A stretch of DNA of 64,000 nucleotides from Membranipora membranacea (lineage: Eukaryota > Bryozoa > Gymnolaemata > Cheilostomatida > Membraniporidae), in contig OU612072.1 of NCBI GenBank assembly GCA_914767715.1, forward strand, positions 26,598,001-26,662,000, in the 5' to 3' direction. Below the pieces are notes generated by a model, which was given only the letters and a program-made list of their open reading frames with translations, was not told the DNA's origin and made no database searches. The stretch's first letter is position 1; every line of letters starts with the position of its first letter. The position numbers were made by a program, and so were the translations under genes. This document shows, one piece after another, positions 12,130 through 61,312 of the stretch.

Positions 12130-12303
12130 TTTCAGTTTCAGTTTCAGTTTCAGTTTCAGTTTCAGTTTCAGTTTCAGTTTCAGTTTCAGTTTCAGTTTCA
12201 GTTTCAGTTTCAGTTTCAGTTTCAGTTTCAGTTTCAGTTTCAGTTTCAGTTTCAGTTTCAGTTTCAGTTTCAGTTTCAGTTTCAGTTTCAGTTTCAGTTT
12301 CAG
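12130..12303 (+). repeat. (TTTCAG)29 hexanucleotide satellite
   Basis: 29 uninterrupted copies (174 bp). All three frames on each strand are open through the array, which produces several artefactual ORFs of alternating residues. On the + strand the unit equals a consensus intron 3' end. Confidence 0.97.
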
Positions 12304-34083: not shown

Positions 34084-34156
34084 GCCTGGATTGCTCAGTC
34101 GGTAGAGCATCAGACTCTAAACCTGAGGGTCCAGGGTTTGAGTCCCTCTCCGGGCG
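34084..34156 (+). tRNA. tRNA-like gene with anticodon CTA (amber-reading type)
   Basis: The 73 bases fold as a cloverleaf. Acceptor GCCTGGA pairs with TCCGGGC (one T-G wobble). The D-arm is GCTC/GAGC, the anticodon stem TCAGA/CCTGA (one A-C mismatch), the loop CTCTAAA with CTA at positions 34-36, the variable loop five bases, and the T-stem CAGGG/CCCTC (one C-C mismatch) with loop TTTGAGT. The backbone resembles tRNA-Lys(CTT), whose loop would be CTCTTAA. The T-loop has T instead of the invariant C56, and two stems carry a mismatch, so a pseudogene or SINE head is more likely than a functional suppressor tRNA. No intron and no encoded CCA. Confidence 0.6.
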
Positions 34157-39714: not shown

Positions 39715-41408
39715 TAATTATGTCTGCTTCCGTATAATGATTATTATCATGATCATACATTGTCTTTTCAATTTCAATATTCTTTGTGAAAGATATGTCA
39801 ATAATTATTTTTTTCCTGTTTACTTCCAAGTGCTAATTTAGCGCTCCGAAGGTTATCACATATACAGGGTCAGCAAAGCAATCAGTATGAAGGACATTAT
39901 TAATCTCGGTGATATGAAAAATTCAATAACAAATTAACTTTCCTCATGATGAAAAATATTGAAAGACCTTTATTTTGAAGCTATCAATACATATACCTCT
40001 ATGCAATATGCCATATGCCTCTGATAAAATATAGAATGTTATGTCACAGGTTAATGTTATGATACTAACGCTCACCCAGTTGGATATTTTATATAATTTT
40101 GGAAAGCTTATTGAACACTGATTCAGAAAATATTTGTTTCAGCATGTTGTCAAGTCATGGCATTGAGCTATTTCATTAAAATGCAGGATGAGCGTCTTTG
40201 AGGGGCAATTTTTAGGACGAAGAAGTGCAGATACAATGGTTCATATCGGATTTTCAACTGAATATTTTATACAAAACAGGCCTCTGAAGCAACCTTGAGG
40301 GTCAATTCCTGGATCCTGTGGCATTACGTACCAGAGGATATTTAAAATGTGAAATTCGGACAACGTTGGTATCATAACTTTTAGTTAACAAGAGACATTC
40401 TTTGTATCAAAAGTGAATTATCAAAGCAGAAAAGCAGAAAAGCAGAAAATTAACACATAACAATACTACTACTTGGATTGGTTACTGAGCTTATTGCCGA
40501 GTAAGCTGAAACAGGAAGTAAATAATTCATGACCAATCAACACAAGCACACAACAAACAGAGACGTTTTTGTTAGTAGTTTATGTACCAAGCATCGTTCA
40601 GGTAGGCACAATACTCTAGAAGAACATGGATAATTTTTTGCATTCAAATGCTTGCAATCAACTATGAGATGTTAAAAGGTCGACATGGTGTTCATTCACA
40701 TGGTTTTCAATACTATATCGGAAATGCTTTGCTGCAATCCAATTAATTTCTCGGATACTGGGAGATTTGAAGGATCTTTTTCCATCATATTACCCTTTAG
40801 ATCTTTGCATTGAAGTGTAGATGTGAGTTAATTGTTCTTTTATACAAACTGATAGGTTATCTCCTGCGCATGAAGTGTTCCTACTTCATAACTACATCAA
40901 TATTATCCCATCATTAATTTTAAGTATATAACTCATTGACAAGATTTATCGATTATGACCTTTATATCTACAACAACAATACACTAATTGAAACTAGAAA
41001 TTCTGGCTTGATCTGGGGATGCATTGAGTTACAATATATTATAATCATGGTTTGAATTAATCGACAAGTTCTTACACTCAGATGCACCTGTCTGCTTGTC
41101 GTCACTGCTGGTAAATTGTGAAAGAAATTGTTCTGTGAAGATCATCCTTTGGCAGGTTGATTATGGTGACAATATAGTTTTATCATTTCTGTCATGGACT
41201 GATCACCGGTTAGGCTGACACTTCACTGAAACCTTCAACTGAAGAAGAAATAGCTTCCCTAGGATCAAGTATGTATTTAATTTTATATTTATTTTCCATG
41301 TTCTCCAAAGATCCTCAAGTGATGTGATATGATATTCTCTGAACTTGTGTTACAGATATTTGATGTGATCCTGATCAGATCTCATTCATATGAAACCTTC
41401 AGATCAAC
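38638..41408. other. Intergenic DNA upstream of GPCR
   Basis: Contains (TA)n tracts near 39324-39340, 39424-39455 and 39682-39710, and a TATTTATTGTATTAGG-type repeat near 38960-39020. A possible 5' UTR acceptor (GTGTTACAG at about 41348-41356) lies shortly before the GPCR start. I see no other gene. Confidence 0.4.
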
Positions 41409-42311
41409 ATGGATTCTGAAAAGAGGAATTTTGAAGTTGTCCTACCTTCTGAAGTCGGTTCTATGACTGCAATAATAATAGTTATGATTATGGTGACCAA
41501 CACTCTAACCTTGCTTACATTCAAACGTATGATGAGACTACAGTACCAGCACTATCTGATGATCTGCTTAGCTGTTGTAGATCTGTTAACGATGCTACCC
41601 TACTTCATATCACTGTATGGGTTCTTCAGAGGATTTCTAACATTGTCTGACAATTTTTGTGCAACAATAACTATATACAGTGTTAGTGTTATTGCTGAAA
41701 CGACATGGATCCATTGCATAATATGCATTGATAAATACTTATCCATTTGTAAACCAATTAAGCACAGGCAATTCACAACCAATCACAAAATGTCTCATGT
41801 AGCTGTAGGGTTATCTTGTAGTCTATTTGTTATCATTGTCGCCATCATGTTGATCTCAGTTGTGACTGAATTTATGAAGGCCCAATTCAGTCCTGTACTA
41901 GCTACTTGTATGTTTAGGATAGATTGGTCCTATGTTGTTCTAAGTGGTAGCCTATTCATTGTACTACCACTCTCTATCTCCTTTCTTACTCACTTTATGA
42001 TTATGAAAGAGGTGAGGGCTTCAGGAATGAGGCAGCAGAGAAAGATAAAAAGGTCCATGAGAACTGTCATATTTATAGTTGGAACTTATTATTTATGTTG
42101 GTCTCCATACTTGGTGTTTGTAACTTGGCAGATTCTTCCTTTTCTTAATCTGCGGCCACCAAGGATATTTGAATTAGTCGCTACATATTTTGTCATGGCA
42201 AATAGTGCAGTGAATTTTTTGATTTATTTCATCACCAACATTGATTTCCGGAAAAATTGTAAAACACTTTTGCATGTGTTTCCATGTATTAATAGAGTAG
42301 AGCCTCAGTAG
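41409..42311 (+). CDS. Rhodopsin-class G protein-coupled receptor, single exon (300 aa)
   Basis: A continuous frame encodes seven hydrophobic segments with class A landmarks. These are N31 (1.50, in VTNTLTL), D58 (2.50, in LAVVDLL), C84 (3.25) with its partner cysteine in the second extracellular loop (LATCMF), DKY108-110 in place of DRY, CWSP (C230-P233) in helix 6, and NSAVNFLIY (N269, F270, Y273) in helix 7. The N-terminus is short (about 18 residues), and the short tail has a cysteine (C294) that could be palmitoylated. Helix 7 has Phe where the NPxxY proline belongs. It is intronless in the coding region, as in many invertebrate GPCR expansions. The ligand cannot be predicted; it does not match a family I can name. 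Confidence 0.88.
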   Translation: MDSEKRNFEVVLPSEVGSMTAIIIVMIMVTNTLTLLTFKRMMRLQYQHYLMICLAVVDLLTMLPYFISLYGFFRGFLTLSDNFCATITIYSVSVIAETTWIHCIICIDKYLSICKPIKHRQFTTNHKMSHVAVGLSCSLFVIIVAIMLISVVTEFMKAQFSPVLATCMFRIDWSYVVLSGSLFIVLPLSISFLTHFMIMKEVRASGMRQQRKIKRSMRTVIFIVGTYYLCWSPYLVFVTWQILPFLNLRPPRIFELVATYFVMANSAVNFLIYFITNIDFRKNCKTLLHVFPCINRVEPQ

Positions 42312-52096: not shown

Positions 52097-55000
52097 ATGG
52101 AGAAGGAAATGGAGAAAGTTTCATTGGAAGAAGATCCTCCTGTCAACAAATCTGAAGGTAGATACTAACTAAGATAGATCAGTCAGTTACTGGTAACTGT
52201 TAGCTTTACAGTAACAATGATGATATGATGAATATCACTGTGAGCAAAAGGAGTAACTCATTGCTTCCAGCATGTTTATAGGCACCCTCCACCTCAGCAC
52301 TCTCCTTTCTCCCTGTTTACTGGTACATACTTTAAATGAGCAGGTAGAGCAGAGTCTTGAGATCGGTCATCTAAAAAATAGGATAGAGAATATCACCTGC
52401 CATTAAACAGAGGCATAGAGCAGTGCCTGGGCCAGGAACCTGCTAGGTTGACTGCTCTCTAATGTATAGTATGTTTAGTTTACATATGTAGGCCATATGT
52501 GAGGCCATATGCGATGGTTCAGTCTCAAAATCTTACTCCAAGCTGTGTTAAATGTTCATTCTCACAAAAAAACAAGAAATCAAGATGTTAGCCCATTGTA
52601 TAATGTAGGACTAAGCCTACCATTAGCCTAAGTAATGTGGTTGTCTTGTTAACTAGTAAACATATAGTTCTATTGAAGGTAACGGCGTCATGTCATAAGT
52701 TGAATGTAGAATGTTTACCCAAGCCCTGTACGAGGTAATCAAGTTCTATGGGCCTAGTATGCTCATGCAACTTCAAAGTAATTCAATGGTAGCATTAGTT
52801 GGAAGCGCCTACCATCATCTCTATCACCCTTCTGAAGCACTGAGTGACTTAATTGAAGCTACTCTACTGTTTATTTTGTAGCTGAAGCTAGCAGCAGTGA
52901 GCAAGCTAAGAAAGGAGATGATATTGTAGATCCGTGGTCTGTGTCAGCAGCAGCCGACACTGGGATAGACTATGACAAACTGATCAGTAAGTTATCCAGT
53001 GTATATCAATATTACTACATCGGAACTGGAGGCTATTCTACAGTGTCCTCTTTGGAATAGTAACTTCTTCCAATGATTTCATGGAGACATAGGCCTAATG
53101 AAGGTTATGGGGTCTATAAATCGCCCTTTGTGATTGTCATGGAACTGATTTTCATTCTGTGACATGGATTATTCTGCTATATGTGACATGACATTGAAGA
53201 ATCTAACCGTCGATTTGAATTGGGATTAGTTAAACTAGGAGTTCTGTTTGCTTCAGCGCCCTGACAGGCTGCAGTTTGGTACACCTGGACACTAAATCAA
53301 AGAAAATTTAGAATCGTTTATCCAGTTGCCTGTAAAACGTAGGATTGTTTCGCTGACTGATGTTCTCTTCCTTGACCTATGCCATACCTTCTATAGTGAG
53401 CACACTATTATCATTTGTTGTATTTTAACTAACCAAACACTTATCACTTATAACTAATATGGTTTCTGTCTTGTAGAAAGATTTGGCAGCTCTAAGATAG
53501 ATGATGCCTTGATTTCCAGGTTTGAAGCTGTGACAGGAAAAAAAGCTCATCATCTACTTAGACGTGGTATCTTCTTCTCCCATAGGTCAGTATTATATTC
53601 TCTTCTTCTCCCATAGGTCAGTCTTATATTCTCTTCTTCTCCCATAGGTCAGTCTTATATTCTCTTCTTCTCCCATAGGTCAGTATTATATTCTCTTCTT
53701 CTCCCATAGGTCAGTATTATATTCTCTTCTTCTCCCATAGGTCAGTATTATATTCTCTTCTTCTCCCATAGGTCAGTATTATATTCTCTTCTTCTCCCAT
53801 AGGTCAGTCTTATATTCTCTTCTTCTCCCATAGGTCAGTATTATATTCTCTTCTTCTCCCATAGGTCAGTCTTATATTCTCTTCTTCTCCCATAGGTCAG
53901 TCTTATATTCTCTTCTTCTCCCATAGGTCAGTCTTATATTCTCTTCTTCTCCCATAGGTCAGTCTTATATTCTCTTCTTCTCCCATAGGTCAGTCTTATA
54001 TTCTCTTCTTCTCCCATAGGTCAGTATTATATTCTCTTCTTCTCCCATAGGTCAGTATTATATTCTCTTCTTCTCCCATAGGTCAGTATTATATTCTCTT
54101 CTTCTCCCATAGGTCAGTATTATATTCTCTTCTTCTCCCATAGGTCAGTCTTATATTCTCTTCTTCTCCCATAGGTCAGTCTTATATTCTCTTCTTCTCC
54201 CATAGGTCAGTCTTATATTCTCTTCTTCTCCCATAGGTCAGTCTTATATTCTCTTCTTCTCCCATAGGTCAGTCTTATATTCTCTTCTTCTCCCATAGGT
54301 CAGTATTATATTCTCTTCTTCTCCCATAGGTCAGTATTATATTCTCTTCTTCTCCCATAGGTCAGTATTATATTCTCTTCTTCTCCCATAGGTCAGTCTT
54401 ATATTCTCTTCTTCTCCCATAGGTCAGTATTATATTCTCTTCTTCTCCCATAGGTCAGTATTATATTCTCTTCTTCTCCCATAGGTCAGTCTTATATTCT
54501 CTTCTTCTCCCATAGGTCAGTATTATATTCTCTTCTTCTCCCATAGGTCAGTATTATATTCTCTTCTTCTCCCATAGGTCAGTCTTATATTCTCTTCTTC
54601 TCCCATAGGTCAGTCTTATATTCTCTTCTTCTCCCATAGGTCAGTATTATATTCTCTTCTTCTCCCATAGGTCAGTCTTATATTCTCTTCTTCTCCCATA
54701 GGTCAGTATTATATTCTCTTCTTCTCCCATAGGTCAGTATTATATTCTCTTCTTCTCCCATAGGTCAGTCTTATATTCTCTTCTTCTCCCATAGGTCAGT
54801 CTTATATTCTCCATACATCAATCATACCTATAATAGGGCTGTGATTGTGTGTATGACCCCTCCTATGATACTTTGTCGACTATTTATTTAATATATTGTT
54901 AGGAATTGTCTCTAAAAATTGGAAATGAGCTCAGAATTTTTTTATGCAATTTTTTCTAGACATGATTGAAAGCAAAGAAAGTTTCTATGATCCAATAAGA

Positions 55001-58000
55001 TGTTACATTTGATAATCTGCAAATTATTGGCAATGTCATTTAAACTCACAGTAGGCAATGTTAGCTCCATGACTTTCCCCGAGTTCCCAGGCCAAATAAT
55101 ATCATTTGTTAACAAATCTCCAGGTTACATTAACTGCGGTACAATCATCATGGCCTGGACTCAGTGTCACTGTCAGACAGCTCTTAGTGTTTGTATTCAA
55201 TCCCTGATGTATCTTGTGTTGTTTACAGGGAGTTTGATATGATACTGACTCTACATGAGAAAGGGAAGCCATTTTATCTGTACACCGGCAGAGGGCCGTC
55301 CTCGGAGGCAATGCATCTCGGTCACCTAATACCCTTCATATTCACTAAGTAAGTAGAGTATCCTCCGGTGTCTCCTCACTAAGTAGCATTCTGACCTGCT
55401 ACTGACATGATAATTCAAGGCTGGTTGTATTTGTATAGTTGTATTTGTATAGTTGTATTTGTATAGTTGTATTTGTATAGTTGTATTTGTATAGTTGTAT
55501 TTCCTCAGATGGCTCTGCAGCTCTAAGCTCTGGAGTTGTAAGTCTTGCATTGTTTTGTATTATGACAGATGGTTACAGGAGGTGTTTGACGTTCCGCTCG
55601 TTATTCAGCTGACGGATGATGAGAAGTTTTTATGGAAGGATCTGAAGATAGAGGAATGTCGGAGATTAGCTCAGGAGAATATTAAGGATATCATAGCCAT
55701 AGGCTTCGATCCTAGAAAGACTTTTATATTCACAGATATCGACTACATTAGGTGAGAGGTAGTCTGAGCCCCCCAGACTTTGCCCCCCTCCCGGCGGCCC
55801 CCCGGTGAGAGGAAGCTGACATTCAAATATCAACCACCTCTATGCTGAGGAAATGTCTATGTCACAGAATTGTGCTCCACTTTGCAAGAAATGTCAGATA
55901 GAGGACAGGACTCAGAATTGCCAAATACGAGAATTAATTTACCTCAGATTTTTACTTTTTACTGGATTTTTTAAACACGATCTGTTCTAATACAATGTGT
56001 CACTTTTTACCTAGCGAGGCTTTTAAAGGTTTCACACTCTGTGTGAAAATCAATAGGCTGACTAAAGATAATAATGATAATAATTATAGTAAAATTGATC
56101 GTTTTATAGTGATTATGTAAGGTAGGTTTCAGGTGCGATGACTGATTTATTGTTACTGTCGTTTTACGATCCACCTCACCCTTATATTCTATCTTGTATT
56201 TCAGCTCAGTACCAGAATTCTACATGAATATAATCCGAGTATCTAAATGTGTCACATATAACCAAGCTAAGGGGATATTCGGGTTTAATGACAGCTCATG
56301 TATAGGGAAGATATCATTCCCCGCCATCCAGGCCGTGCCGTCGTTTAGTAGCTCCTTCCCTCATATATTCGCTGGAAAGAAGGACATTCAGTGTCTCATA
56401 CCCTGTGCTATTGATCAGGTATGTATAGTAAATATATTCACGTAGTCAAGCGTCTAAACTTTGACATGAGAGCTGGCTGTAGTATATCATTATCAACCAC
56501 TGGGATAGTGGATAGTGGATAGTGGATATCTGCAGCCAGCTATAGATAAAATTAGTTAGTTAGTGTTTGAATTTAGTTTGTAGGACCTTTATCTAGTGTT
56601 AGTGAGGGATATATACACTTGTGTTTGGTAGCTCTCAATAATATCACATTGTTTGTCCATTATATTAGTTACAGGGGAGTTAATACCAGTCTAACAAGTA
56701 GATTGTTAGAGTGATCTCTTGGTTTCGCCTCATCATTCTACAGTTCCCAAGGCTCCACGCATTATCTAGAACACTAGAACACACTCAGCAGTGGTGGGGC
56801 AAAATGATAAAGCTTGGAGCTAGACAGATATGATCATAAGCACTTATGTCATATTTTATAGTTGCTTGAGTGTCATTTAGATAGAACCTGTTTCTTTATA
56901 GCTCATCAAAGCTATAGTAGCCGAGCTGCTGGGCTTGTGCTTTTCTCGGGAAAACAAAATATATATTTAAAATTTTTTCCATGATCTATAATTTGAGCAT
57001 TAAAGATATTACATAGGGGAAGGCGGGGTACATTGAGCCAGTTTTTACAGTTTTGATTGTAACATGCAGTTGAATTGTGCCAGGTTAACAAAACTTGGCA
57101 CTGAAATTGTTCATCATGTCTTCCATCAACATGAGTGAGGTCAGAAACCTATTGCAGCAAGAAGAGGAAATATTGCTGTTTCAAAAAAAATCGGAAGCGG
57201 CTCAACGTGCCCCAAGCACGGGGCACGTTGAGCCGGGTCTGCATTTTGTATGGGGCACGTTGAGCCACTCTGTTATGGTCATCTCTTTGCTGGTAATAAC
57301 TTTTAAATTCATTGCAACCATAAGAAATAAAGAAAAGCAACCAAATTCATTGCCACAGCACATTTTTTTCACTCGATTGAACTATAAAATAAAATAAAAT
57401 TCGCAAAACAAAATAAATTTCGGAAACATTTGCGGTAGAAGAAAACTTGCACACGCAAACTTGATGATAAGTGAAGGGAAAAGTTAACTCAGAGTAATTG
57501 CTAATTTCATTAAAGAAATATCAATTCCAATGTTTTCGTTTTTGTGTCTATAAGTGTTGTCAAACAGTTTCAAACATATTTCATATACACTTTCATCATA
57601 TAACATTCATACTGGCATGGCTCAACGTGCCCAAACAGCCTGTTTCTCACTTTCAACTCGAGTTAAACAAAATCTCTCCATTAGAGATAAGTTTAGATTA
57701 TGTGAAATTGAGACTAAATATGATGTTATCACATAATAAAAGTTGCAACTTCTCAGTCACACCTTGTTGGGAATAGGTGACATTTCCGTCGATTAGCTCA
57801 TTATTTACTTTTTACCCTTGAAACGATGAAAAACTAAATAATTATCTCCCCTTAGTAGCTATCTTTCTTTTTGTCTGCTCAGAAAGGGTGCCTTTGGTCT
57901 CATGACCTCTGATGGAGGGGAAAACTCAATACATAAAATGGTATTTAAAAAAAGTGGGGTGGATGAACGTGCCCCGCCTTCCCCTATATCTTATAAAGTG

Positions 58001-61000
58001 ATGAAGAGGGGACGACTTTAAGGGGTTGAGAAAAGTTCAGAAGAAATTTCTTTCCAGTATAGCTAATATTCCCAACTCTGTCCAGACGATTTATTTAAGA
58101 GTTTACAACAGTGCTCTTGATCAGAGTGAGACCTTCAATATAATACTAAATATGGGGAGGCGCTACTACAGCTGATCAATATAATACTAAATATGGGGAG
58201 GCGCTACTACAGCTGATCAATATAATACTAAATATGGGGAGGCGCTACTACAGCTGATCAATATAATACTAAATATGGGGAGGCGCTACTACAGCTGATC
58301 AGTATAATACTAAATATGGGGAGGCGCTACTACAGCTGATCAATATAATACTAAATATGGGGAGGCGCTACTACAGCTGATCAATATAATACTAAATATG
58401 GGGAGGCGCTACTACAGCTGATCAATATAATACTAAATATGGGGAGGCGCTACTACAGCTGATCAATATAATACTAAATATGGGGAGGCGCTACTACAGC
58501 TGATCAATATAATACTAAATATGGGGAGGCGCTACTACAGCTGATCAATATAATACTAAATATGGGGAGGCGCTACTACAGCTGATCAATATAATACTAA
58601 ATATGGGGAGGCGCTACTACAGCTGATCAACATACGAGTATCTCCATGATGTTACTCACTAATTAGGATGTGATCTTTTTATTCTAGGATCCATACTTCA
58701 GAATGACAAGAGATGTCGCGCCGAGGTTGGGGTACCGTAAGCCCGCCCTACTCCACTCGTCGTTCTTCCCAGCGTTACAGGGAGCTCAGACTAAGATGTC
58801 CGCCAGTGACCCAAATACATCAATATTCTTAACAGACACCGACAAGCAGATAAAAAATAAGGTAAGTGAGCAGAGCTACCACTGATAAAGTTACTGCTAC
58901 AGATACTGCTACTGCTGCCACTCAGGAAGTTGTGTGCTCATTGAATTCTGTACTTATCAGAGCTGACTAATTGACAATTTTATAACCTATCCAGCGGATA
59001 ATTTGCCCAATCTAATTGTCAGAATCAGGTTACAATTAAGTGACCTAAGTGAAATGGCGACGGTTTTGTCTGCGTTACTCATTTAAGATACTGATGTCAC
59101 CAGTAAGCAATTTGTTTCACCTCTTGATTTTGACAATCAGTTACTGAGAATCATATGCCCTTCTTTTGGTGAGATTGAAGCCGCACTTTGATATCCTCGA
59201 GCTATAGAGAATCAATCGGTCACACATTTCCCTGAGTGGTAGCAGTAGTTTAGAGATGACTCACTCTCCGGTTACTCTATGAGATTTAAGTGTGGAGCAC
59301 CAACTTTTATGCTGCTTACAGTGGATTTATATGCTAGATAAATCAAGGGGTTGTATCACAAGCCACTCGGAAAGTTGAAATTTAAGATGAATGTACCATG
59401 CTGAAAAAAAATAAGCAGGCATTACGCAGTTTGGTTAGGCAGCGGTTTCCCTGCTGGCATAGCTGCAATTACCCAAGAATCTGTGCTTCAACCATCTGAG
59501 CAACCTACTAACTATAATAGCTTACTCGTTCTTTGAAATACTATCGGAGCACTTTCTTACACCATGTCCTAAATGTATTTTTAAACTCAGCGTTTACTGA
59601 TTGTAGCCAAATTTGTGTCATAGCTTGGACAGTTGTTTTATATCAAGGCATTCCACCACCACTCCCCTGTTGTCCTGTTTATTGTCACAAACTCTCTCAC
59701 ACCTCCCTTCATTGTTAGATAGCATATCAAACCTATAAGCTGATGTGGTTATCCTTTTAACCTCAAACCAAAGAGTTAATAAGATTTTTTCTGACTTGGT
59801 ATTGGCGTATTGGCTCATTTCTGTGTCGACATTAATGCAATAATCCGCTGTATGCATTTGAAATTAATGGTTTCATAAAAAGGGAGCTACATTTCTCGTC
59901 CTGCCCTGTATTGAAGTGTAAATAGTTTATAGTGACCTTAATCGATAGGCTGTCACAGGAATACCTTTGAACATTATTCTAATGTTGTTTATTACAGATA
60001 AATAAGTATGCATTCTCAGGGGGCGGGGCTACTGTAGAGGAACACAAAGAGAGAGGCGGAGACTGTGATGTAGACATATCTTATCAGTATCTCAAATTCT
60101 TATTGGACGATGATGACAGGCTAGAACAGATTAGGAAGGTGAGAGTCTTATAGACATTGTGCCATTGTATCATGACATTTCCAATTGGTCACCACAGCTG
60201 CTACGCACTGCTAAGCCATTAATCTGAGCCCCCAAACTATCGCCTCCCGCCCGACGGCCCCCCGAAGAGGGAGTAGCAATAGCATTAGGTGCCAGGGGTG
60301 TCAACATAGTCCGATTGTTGGTAGATATATTTACCATCGATTGTTCCCACCCCAAATCCCCATGGTGTTTATTCATTGCTCCCATATTGTAGTATACTAA
60401 ATACCAACTACAATTTGGTCACGGGTTACAAACATGAATCTATCCATCATTTGACTTGGACTCACCTGGTGAAATAGTCCACTCAGGGAGTTATATACCA
60501 AACTCCCTGGTCCTTGGATAGGAACGAAGGTGGCTATAACTGTCAAGAGTTGTCAACTCATGTGGATAAGACGCATCTCGTTGAGGGCTTTTTGATAAGG
60601 TCTCAATGTTTTGTATCTGATTTGCTGGTGTCTTGATCAATCAGCTTCAATATACTACAAGAGCACAAGCTCATAATAAAAAAAAAATATTAAAAATAAA
60701 ACTGAACAGCTTACGATTCGGTGATGATTTGAGCCCTTTAAAAGTTATGGGGCTCCTGAATTTCAGTGATGTTTGATCTAGCATATGATATATCATTAGC
60801 ATTCACACAAAACAAGGCTCAATATTCAGGAGGGTCTGCCTAACTGTAGAATTTATACGTTCATCGCTGAAGTGTAGCATAGACTCTTGCCAGTTCTACA
60901 TCCCATTGGTCGTGCTGATCACAATACTCTACAATCTTTGCCGATCCCCATTTGTAGCACTAATCAGATCTGTTCGGCTCAACGAGTATGCATGCAATAA

Positions 61001-61312
61001 CTGGGACTATCCAGACAATCCATCTATTGGGTTGTCCGTATCTAATGATCATTTCATAGTTTTGTTGACTTTATATTTTAGGACTACACATCTGGTGAGT
61101 TACTGACCGGTTATTTAAAGAAGGAGTTGATAGAACTTCTGCAGCCTCTAGTAGCCGGACACAGGGAGAGACGGAAAGAGATCACTGACGAAACGATACA
61201 GTTATTTACCACTCCTAGAGCCCTTAACTACACACCCCCTCCTGCCTCTGCCCCTGCTGAGGGGAGCGGAGAGAAGAAAGGCAAAAAGAAATCTAAGAAG
61301 ACAGACTCATAG
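52097..61312 (+). CDS. WARS1: Cytosolic tryptophanyl-tRNA synthetase (9 coding exons, 445 aa)
   Basis: Exons: 52097-52157, 52882-52986, 53477-53585, 55229-55348, 55569-55751, 56205-56418, 58688-58861, 59998-60138, 61082-61312. They join in phase to 446 codons with stop. The enzyme charges tRNA-Trp using ATP. Visible landmarks are VDPWSV and IDYDKLI, the [14 protein letters not shown] stretch (residues 111-124; HLGH is the HIGH motif), [34 protein letters not shown], the KMSAS loop (300-304) and [15 protein letters not shown]. All are typical of the eukaryotic cytosolic, class Ic enzyme. The N-terminus is short and acidic with no WHEP domain. The C-terminus extends beyond the usual end with a proline-rich then lysine-rich tail ([11 protein letters not shown]). 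The start has G at -3 and +4; an overlapping out-of-frame ATG begins at 52092 in a weak context. Introns 3 and 6 carry large minisatellites. Confidence 0.97.
53570..54813 (+). repeat. 31-bp minisatellite, 40 copies, spanning exon 3/intron 3 of WARS
   Basis: The CATAGGTCAG core recurs 40 times at exact 31-base spacing (first at 53581, last at 54790). The first unit includes the last 16 bases of exon 3 and the authentic donor. Each unit contains TTCTTCTCCCATAG|GTCAGT, a pyrimidine-rich 3' splice-site-like sequence joined directly to a 5' splice site. Only one position varies regularly (A or C after GTCAGT), about half the units each. Because 31 is not a multiple of 3, reading through the array hits a TAG in the second unit. 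Confidence 0.97.
55425..55502 (+). repeat. 14-bp tandem repeat in WARS intron 4
   Basis: Five copies of TTGTATTTGTATAG plus a partial sixth, in the short intron between exons 4 and 5. Confidence 0.9.
57014..57986. mobile_element. MITE-like DNA element in WARS intron 6, about 973 bp
   Basis: The ends are perfect 15-bp inverted repeats TAGGGGAAGGCGGGG (57014-57028 and 57972-57986), with similarity continuing inward. Terminal TA could be a TA target duplication, as in Tc1/mariner-like families. The words GGGCACGTTGAGCC and complement recur inside (about 57197-57267, 57619-57632), including a strong hairpin at about 57198-57235. No transposase frame is present. Its right end lies within about 10 bases of the breakpoint of the inverted WARS duplication. 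Confidence 0.75.
58135..58626 (+). repeat. 41-bp minisatellite, 12 copies, WARS intron 6
   Basis: 12 near-identical copies of a unit containing AATATAATACTAAATATGG and AGGCGCTACTACAGCTG, in exact 41-base register. One unit has a single substitution (CAG for CAA near 58301). The inverted duplicate at about 51030-51060 has just one diverged copy of this unit, so expansion happened in one arm only or contraction in the other. Confidence 0.95.
59395..59520 (-). mobile_element. SINE-like segment in WARS intron 7
   Basis: The minus strand has a tRNA D-arm-like start (GGTTGCTCAGATGGTTGAAGCAC) and continues as in the inverted duplicate at 50195-50335. No T-arm is recognisable. It is shared by both intron copies, so it is older than the duplication. 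Confidence 0.35.

Follow-up and report, generated by a model that had tools for sequence, protein, structure and literature searches.

The third intron of a predicted tryptophanyl-tRNA synthetase (WARS) gene in the bryozoan Membranipora membranacea opens inside a minisatellite that repeats the border between exon 3 and intron 3 forty times, which raises the question of how an intron with so many apparent beginnings could be cleared from the transcripts of an essential gene. The locus lies in a 64,000-nucleotide stretch of genomic DNA, called the window below and numbered from its first letter. A preliminary description of this DNA had interpreted the repeats as recursive (ratchet) splicing sites grown from the authentic donor of exon 3.

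The WARS gene and the array at its third intron

The window contains a complete nine-exon gene model for WARS, the splice junctions of which are predicted; the frame is intact over the nine exons, the introns are of the GT-AG type and the product has 445 amino acids. The features of the gene and of the array are as follows (a slash marks a splice border or the equivalent place in a repeat unit).

52097..61312, + strand: WARS gene, coding exons 1-9
52097-52157, 52882-52986, 53477-53585, 55229-55348 and 55569-55751, + strand: WARS exons 1-5, predicted from the sequence
56205-56418, 58688-58861, 59998-60138 and 61082-61312, + strand: WARS exons 6-9, predicted from the sequence
53477..53585, + strand: exon 3 of WARS, 109 nt, the final 16 bases of which form the exonic half of repeat unit 1
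53586..55228, + strand: intron 3 of WARS in the gene model, 1643 nt, phase 2, GTCAGT ... TTTACAG
55229-55348, + strand: exon 4 of WARS in the gene model
53570..54809, + strand: array of 40 x 31-bp units, TCTTCTTCTCCCATAG / GTCAGT(A/C)TTATATTC, delimited with Tandem Repeats Finder and by direct splitting
53570..53600, + strand: unit 1 of the array, its likely founder, with the authentic exon 3/intron 3 junction at 53585/53586
54795..54796, + strand: GT of the donor copy in unit 40 (the last), 434 nt from the end of the real acceptor
54810..55228, + strand: tail of intron 3, 419 bp, unrelated to the unit, with the real acceptor ending at 55228

Among the 120 matches listed for the WARS protein (of 8000 scored), animal tryptophan--tRNA ligases have 68-77% identity, 77% being the best value, and the one named plant match has 52%. 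A tree of 40 rows (the query and 39 proteins chosen by hand from 122 proteins) gave the query no placement among the animals. The predicted junction between exons 3 and 4, CAT AG/G GAG, preserves the conserved H/Q-R-D/E.

Tandem Repeats Finder, run on the window, reports a period of 31, 40.1 copies, 98% matches and 0% indels over 53570-54811, and direct splitting yields exactly 40 full, gap-free units (53570-54809). The count of forty given in the preliminary description thus stands, whereas the end that it had assigned to the array (54813) lies four bases beyond the last full unit. A 41st unit opens with TC and then diverges. Each unit consists of 16 exon-type bases ending in CATAG and 15 intron-type bases starting with GTCAGT, and just two types of unit are present, with A or C at unit position 23 (20 A-type, 20 C-type). 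The order of the two types forms 18 runs, against the 21.0 expected if it were random (P 0.21). A search for higher-order structure among the A-type and C-type units found a longest repeated word of 9 (P 0.33 by shuffling, 0.48 by run permutation) and no sign of block duplication.

The 419-base tail that follows the array includes CTGAT, a candidate branch point that precedes the real acceptor by 21 nt. The length of intron 3 (1643 = 53 x 31) had prompted the idea that the tail is a decayed extension of the array. This was rejected, as the tail bears no trace of the unit in register: its 13 in-register blocks match the unit no better than shuffles do (P 0.35), and the same is true of the best offset (P 0.79). 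The agreement between intron length and unit length appears to be coincidental.

The origin of the unit can be approached through its exonic half, which comprises the end of an I codon, the codons F-F-S-H and two bases of an R codon. The last codons of exon 3, encoding FFSHR, read TTC TTC TCC CAT AG, and so make up a polypyrimidine tract followed by AG. The peptide motif FFS(H/Q)R is strongly conserved: among the 120 WARS homologues listed, those that keep the residue number 119 and 118 for the two F positions, 118 for S, 120 for H or Q and 119 for R. Unit 1, which the WARS gene model confirms to be the authentic exon 3/intron 3 border, as had been proposed, is most likely the founder of the array, because constraint on the protein accounts for its exonic half, whereas an existing array could have reached a conserved exon end with every letter in place only by coincidence. 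A conserved peptide that chances to spell a splice acceptor would tie protein constraint to intron evolution.

Splice-site character of the units and products of splicing in silico

Donors and acceptors were scored with simple, coarse matrices of the vertebrate type. On this scale, the acceptor of the unit scores 10.24 and tops all eight WARS acceptors (3.78-7.33), and its donor scores 6.97, ranking sixth of the eight WARS donors, its own included; the donor score is low because of the C at position +3. The pyrimidine run that crosses the border between two units is 15 bases long and leads into ATAG/GTCAGT. The preliminary description had spoken of an apparent acceptor abutting a donor in each unit, and this arrangement is indeed seen in all 40; it is the layout of a recursive ratchet point, in which a polypyrimidine, acceptor-like sequence directly abuts a donor. 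On the + strand, all 40 AG/GT sites that equal both scores of the unit are inside the array, and none was found outside it on either strand of the window. When the thresholds were lowered (donor by 1 or 2 bits, acceptor by 2 bits), the + strand yielded a single outside site, whereas the - strand yielded none. The pairing of acceptor and donor in the units is not due to chance. Elsewhere in the window, at 12130-12303, there is a perfect hexamer array, (TTTCAG)29, each copy of which resembles the end of an intron.

The C-type units carry CTTAT, a match to YTNAY, and its A precedes the G of the next AG by 21 nt, a spacing equal to that of CTGAT at the real acceptor. Such a candidate branch point is available for 19 of the 39 steps between units; the other 20, of the A type, are without one. 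The donor and the candidate branch-point A are just 9 nt apart in a single unit, against about 40 nt over two units and about 71 nt over three. Minimal intron size would require internal steps of two to three units. The splicing of a single 31-nt step is very unlikely because the donor sits 9 nt from the candidate branch point. The ratchet reading is therefore kept in part: the layout, the border and the probable founder role of unit 1 agree with the sequence, and single 31-nt steps would give way to steps of two to three units. The possibility that RNA structure hides or aligns the sites was considered and rejected. The RNA of 13 of the 40 units was folded and proved less structured than dinucleotide shuffles (z 2.31; 99 of 100 shuffles equalled or surpassed it), and folding is therefore unlikely to hide the sites.

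When exon 4 is joined in silico to donor 1, the full frame results, with its stop at codon 446; when it is joined to donors 2-40, translation ends at codon 102 in 39 of 39 cases. A leftover of 1-39 units always terminates at this codon, with TAG, in agreement with the earlier claim that the retention of any unit brings such a stop. In the upstream-first direction, the joining of exon 3 to any later AG restores the GT at once, and a second step yields the reference mRNA (39/39). In the downstream-first direction, donor i is joined to exon 4, and donor 1 is then spliced to the AG at that junction, again with the reference mRNA as the product (39/39). The two-step routes thus bear out, in both directions, what had been claimed of the rebuilding of the donor and of the identity of the mRNA after one step or many. 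Longer series should also lead to the reference mRNA, because each removal takes whole units.

The self-correction that had been attributed to the array holds in silico, and extends to its 3' side through re-splicing, with the exception of one probable dead end: a late donor joined to exon 4 with one or two units left over, a remainder that would be too short to splice. Exon 2 might, in addition, be spliced to an internal acceptor, and exon 3 (109 nt) would then be skipped with a frameshift.

The growth of the array was explored with a toy Markov model comprising three worlds and 24 parameter rows, in which the rates were assumed and the shortest intron allowed was 2 or 3 units; exon 3 skipping, the timing of transcription and decay were left out of it. 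When the copies act as donors only, the modelled share of correct mRNA declines with copy number (as 1/n at equal rates), to 0.01-0.20 at n = 40. With active internal acceptors and a blocked junction acceptor, the modelled share is 0.07-0.93 at n = 40, and up to 0.19 is lost between 20 and 80 copies; when ratcheting and re-splicing are both allowed, the corresponding values are 0.41-0.95 and 0.00-0.09. The first duplication has a cost in the model, with a correct share of 0.5 at n = 2 and equal rates, and early growth of the array would therefore have needed tolerance. The model suggests that units combining an acceptor with a donor let correct mRNA reach a plateau as an array grows, and that donor-only repeats drive it towards zero. 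A rule for the invasion of gene borders by repeats may be proposed on these lines: a repeat that multiplies only a donor should be eliminated, and one that multiplies acceptor and donor together should expand freely.

Routes of intron removal and rival readings

The minisatellite may have grown through successive tandem duplication of a 31-bp stretch straddling the exon 3/intron 3 junction of WARS. Each copy would be a potential dual-specific splice site, with its acceptor abutting its donor, because the end codons of exon 3 happen to spell a polypyrimidine tract and AG. The removal of intron 3 could then be direct, with donor 1 spliced to the real acceptor, or stepwise, by upstream-first ratcheting, by internal trimming, or by re-splicing after a later donor has been joined to exon 4, and all complete routes would converge on the same mRNA. 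Probably, a mixture of these routes is used, and the incompletely trimmed products (+31, +62 nt and so on), bearing TAG at codon 102, would mostly be destroyed. The array would be a nearly neutral passenger that persists because each new donor supplies an acceptor for its own removal. We lean slightly towards this account, with its mixed routes of removal, its leftovers as poison transcripts and its near neutrality. The further conclusion, that this is a self-cancelling splice-site minisatellite in which the intron border of an essential gene has been multiplied forty times and interchangeable routes lead to one mRNA, leaving copy number beyond the reach of selection, is put forward tentatively, with confidence a little short of even.

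Use of the internal sites would make the locus a natural experiment on spliceosomal choice, with forty identical donors and thirty-nine intronic copies of the acceptor presented in a fixed order, and it could tell whether the array is cleared by 5' recursive splicing or by 3' re-splicing. If the array is indeed self-cancelling, it would have evolved naturally as a set of forty donors and acceptors, identical and in competition, from which the order of splicing could be read.

Several observations weigh against the use of mixed routes. The donor is weak at +3, and the 20 A-type steps are devoid of a YTNAY match. In Drosophila, the exon junction complex (EJC), positioned some 20-24 nt upstream of splice junctions, is reported to keep these from being spliced again (PMC8184009), which would hinder the 3' re-splicing route. 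In the model, a blocked junction acceptor brings the yield at forty copies into the wide range of 0.07-0.93, and half of the mRNA is already lost at n = 2 under equal rates. Dual-specific sites are reported to be 2.7-fold (5') and 4.7-fold (3') under-represented among annotated human splice sites, as if they were avoided at true borders (PMC10809524). The joining of exon 2 to internal acceptors, with its frameshift, would be a further cost.

The internal sites may also be hardly used at all, in which case intron 3 would leave in one step and the array would be an ordinary intronic minisatellite that starts at a donor. We give this reading substantial weight, although clearly less than an even chance. 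It might be explained by exon definition over the 109-nt exon 3, which favours donor 1, together with coating of the CU-rich array by PTB-type repressors, a rationale that is plausible and held with the same reserve. The array is dense in CU motifs: TCTT occurs in it 100 times, or 80.6 times per kb, whereas the + strand of the remaining window has 5.5 per kb. Such a density could recruit splicing repressors and thus also tells against mixed routes. Multivalent CT-rich sites are described as recruiting PTBP1 and MATR3 and as repressing splicing in and around mammalian LINE repeats (PMC6108849), and a tenfold weight on the first donor increases the modelled yield in every world. Donor 1, however, has thirty-nine further competitors, identical to it in their first six intron bases, and the toy model, when internal removal is excluded, yields only 0.06-0.20 productive mRNA at n = 40 even with a tenfold first-donor advantage. 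Repression along the whole array would, moreover, be expected to reach donor 1 itself, as its first 15 intron bases belong to unit 1.

A tunable element, in which copy number or the level of a repressor or of the EJC determines what fraction of the transcripts is poison (+31k) and hence how much WARS is made, seems improbable to us; this regulatory role is possible, and is the least supported of the mechanisms weighed. It would be in keeping with the stop at codon 102 in every leftover of 1-39 units and with the dependence of the modelled yield on re-splicing and on the balance between internal and final splicing, as well as with the loss of up to 0.19 between 20 and 80 copies when the junction acceptor is blocked. 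Published RS-exons are also described as responding to donor competition and, in mammals, to the EJC (PMC8605326). The UBC arrays, the closest case to have been studied, are on the other hand presented as being without tissue or feedback regulation (PMC10809524), and tuning by copy number fits poorly with a modelled yield that shifts, over the 24 rows, by only 0.00-0.09 between 20 and 80 copies once re-splicing is allowed.

Near-perfect arrays of more than 1 kb are prone to mis-assembly, and the array is known here from one assembly, so its copy number or homogeneity could in part be an artefact and the real array shorter. This we hold to be very improbable, since both flanks of the array are clean and the A and C variants are interspersed irregularly, unlike the regular pattern of a stuttered contig.

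Related systems and other features of the window

The array multiplies an authentic splice donor, as another minisatellite is said to do: Turri, Cuin and Porter reportedly described, in 1995, multiple splice donor sites in a minisatellite of the human gene 6-16 (G1P3/IFI6). It is said to lie at an exon-intron border and to have a 12-bp unit with a donor and no acceptor. The extra donors of 6-16 reportedly alter the mRNA, whereas the WARS copies would cancel out.

The novelty of the present reading is not complete, as tandem dual-specific splice sites have been described in human UBC and VCX3A (PMC10809524, Duan et al. 2024). According to this paper, each tandem unit contains an AGGT that can be used as a 5' or a 3' splice site, the UBC units are spliced stochastically, and the removal of whole units leaves a valid array. 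The same source counts 77 human introns whose length corresponds to a whole number of the repeat units around them, and proposes that repeat expansions with dual-specific sites are less deleterious, being spliceable out (PMC10809524). The WARS array resembles UBC in that the AGGT core is at an identical place in all 40 units and that whole-unit removal in silico leaves both a valid array and the mRNA (39/39 in each direction). The UBC units are reported to be 228-nt and in-frame coding, with a weak paired 3' site (-0.21) and a unit number that is visible in the product (PMC10809524). In contrast, those of WARS are 31 nt long, do not keep the frame and bring a stop, and they consist of exon and intron in about equal parts, with a strong-looking acceptor; all complete routes would give one mRNA.

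Short repeated AGGT units (24 bp) are also described in the fission yeast genes SPOG_01682 and SOCG_00815, in which an intron spans four or two duplicates (PMC4974935). There, by that account, exonic repeats created the intron, whereas the WARS intron has its own unrelated 3' end and it is the border itself that has been multiplied. Intron 3 likewise departs from the Rogers model, in which a new intron is built from duplicated exonic sequence: it has an independent acceptor and a tail of 419 unrelated bases, and 15 of the 31 bases of the unit are intronic, contrary to that model.

Recursive splicing is described as relying on tandem SA-SD pairs and as requiring an RS-exon with a competing downstream donor, donor strength deciding the outcome (PMC8605326). 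The likeness to ratchet points consists in the juxtaposed SA/SD, the donor rebuilt after the first step and the downstream competing donor that delimits a short RS-exon (PMC8605326). Units 2-39 have such a donor, identical to their own, 31 nt downstream in the next unit; unit 40 is without one in the array. With an identical competing donor in each RS-exon, which would consist of one or more units, donor strength alone therefore cannot favour the ratchet. Fly ratchet points are characterized as well conserved and mostly located in long introns, with a donor usually stronger than that of the RS-exon (PMC8605326), whereas the WARS array has forty identical sites with identical competing donors in an intron of 1.6 kb, which is not a long one. 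The features of human recursive splicing given in a 2026 preprint, from which the word 'tandem' is absent, are CG-rich flanks and first introns (PMC13105047). A search of the openly licensed literature, judged by title and the start of the abstract, found no acceptor/donor minisatellite across an exon-intron border among the matches listed. What is new in the WARS array is its position across this border, its poison unit and its copy number.

Other repeats are present in WARS. At least one tandem array was found by Tandem Repeats Finder in each of four of its eight introns (1, 3, 4 and 6), that of intron 1 being short (52483-52511). The 220-nt intron 4 houses a perfect 14-bp x 5.6 array (55424-55502). 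Intron 6 contains a second near-perfect minisatellite (58135-58634; 41 bp x 12.2, 99% matches), the unit of which includes TACTAAAT, a branch-point-like word, and straddles no splice junction. The same intron has an element of about 1 kb (57006-57994) with 35-nt terminal inverted repeats that are 80% complementary (core AGGGGAAGGCGGGG / CCCCGCCTTCCCCT) and with repeated internal GGGCACGTTGAGCC motifs; it looks like a non-autonomous DNA transposon.

Outside WARS, ARAGORN reports a tRNA with the anticodon CTA, named tRNA-Pyl, on the + strand at 34084-34156; the program was run with bacterial settings on this animal genome, and the call may be an artefact, a pseudogene or a suppressor-like tRNA. 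A GPCR-like open frame of about 300 aa occupies 41394-42308, and a word-based protein search gave only two matches for it at E <= 0.001 (61% and 46% identity), both with the Pfam domain PF00001.
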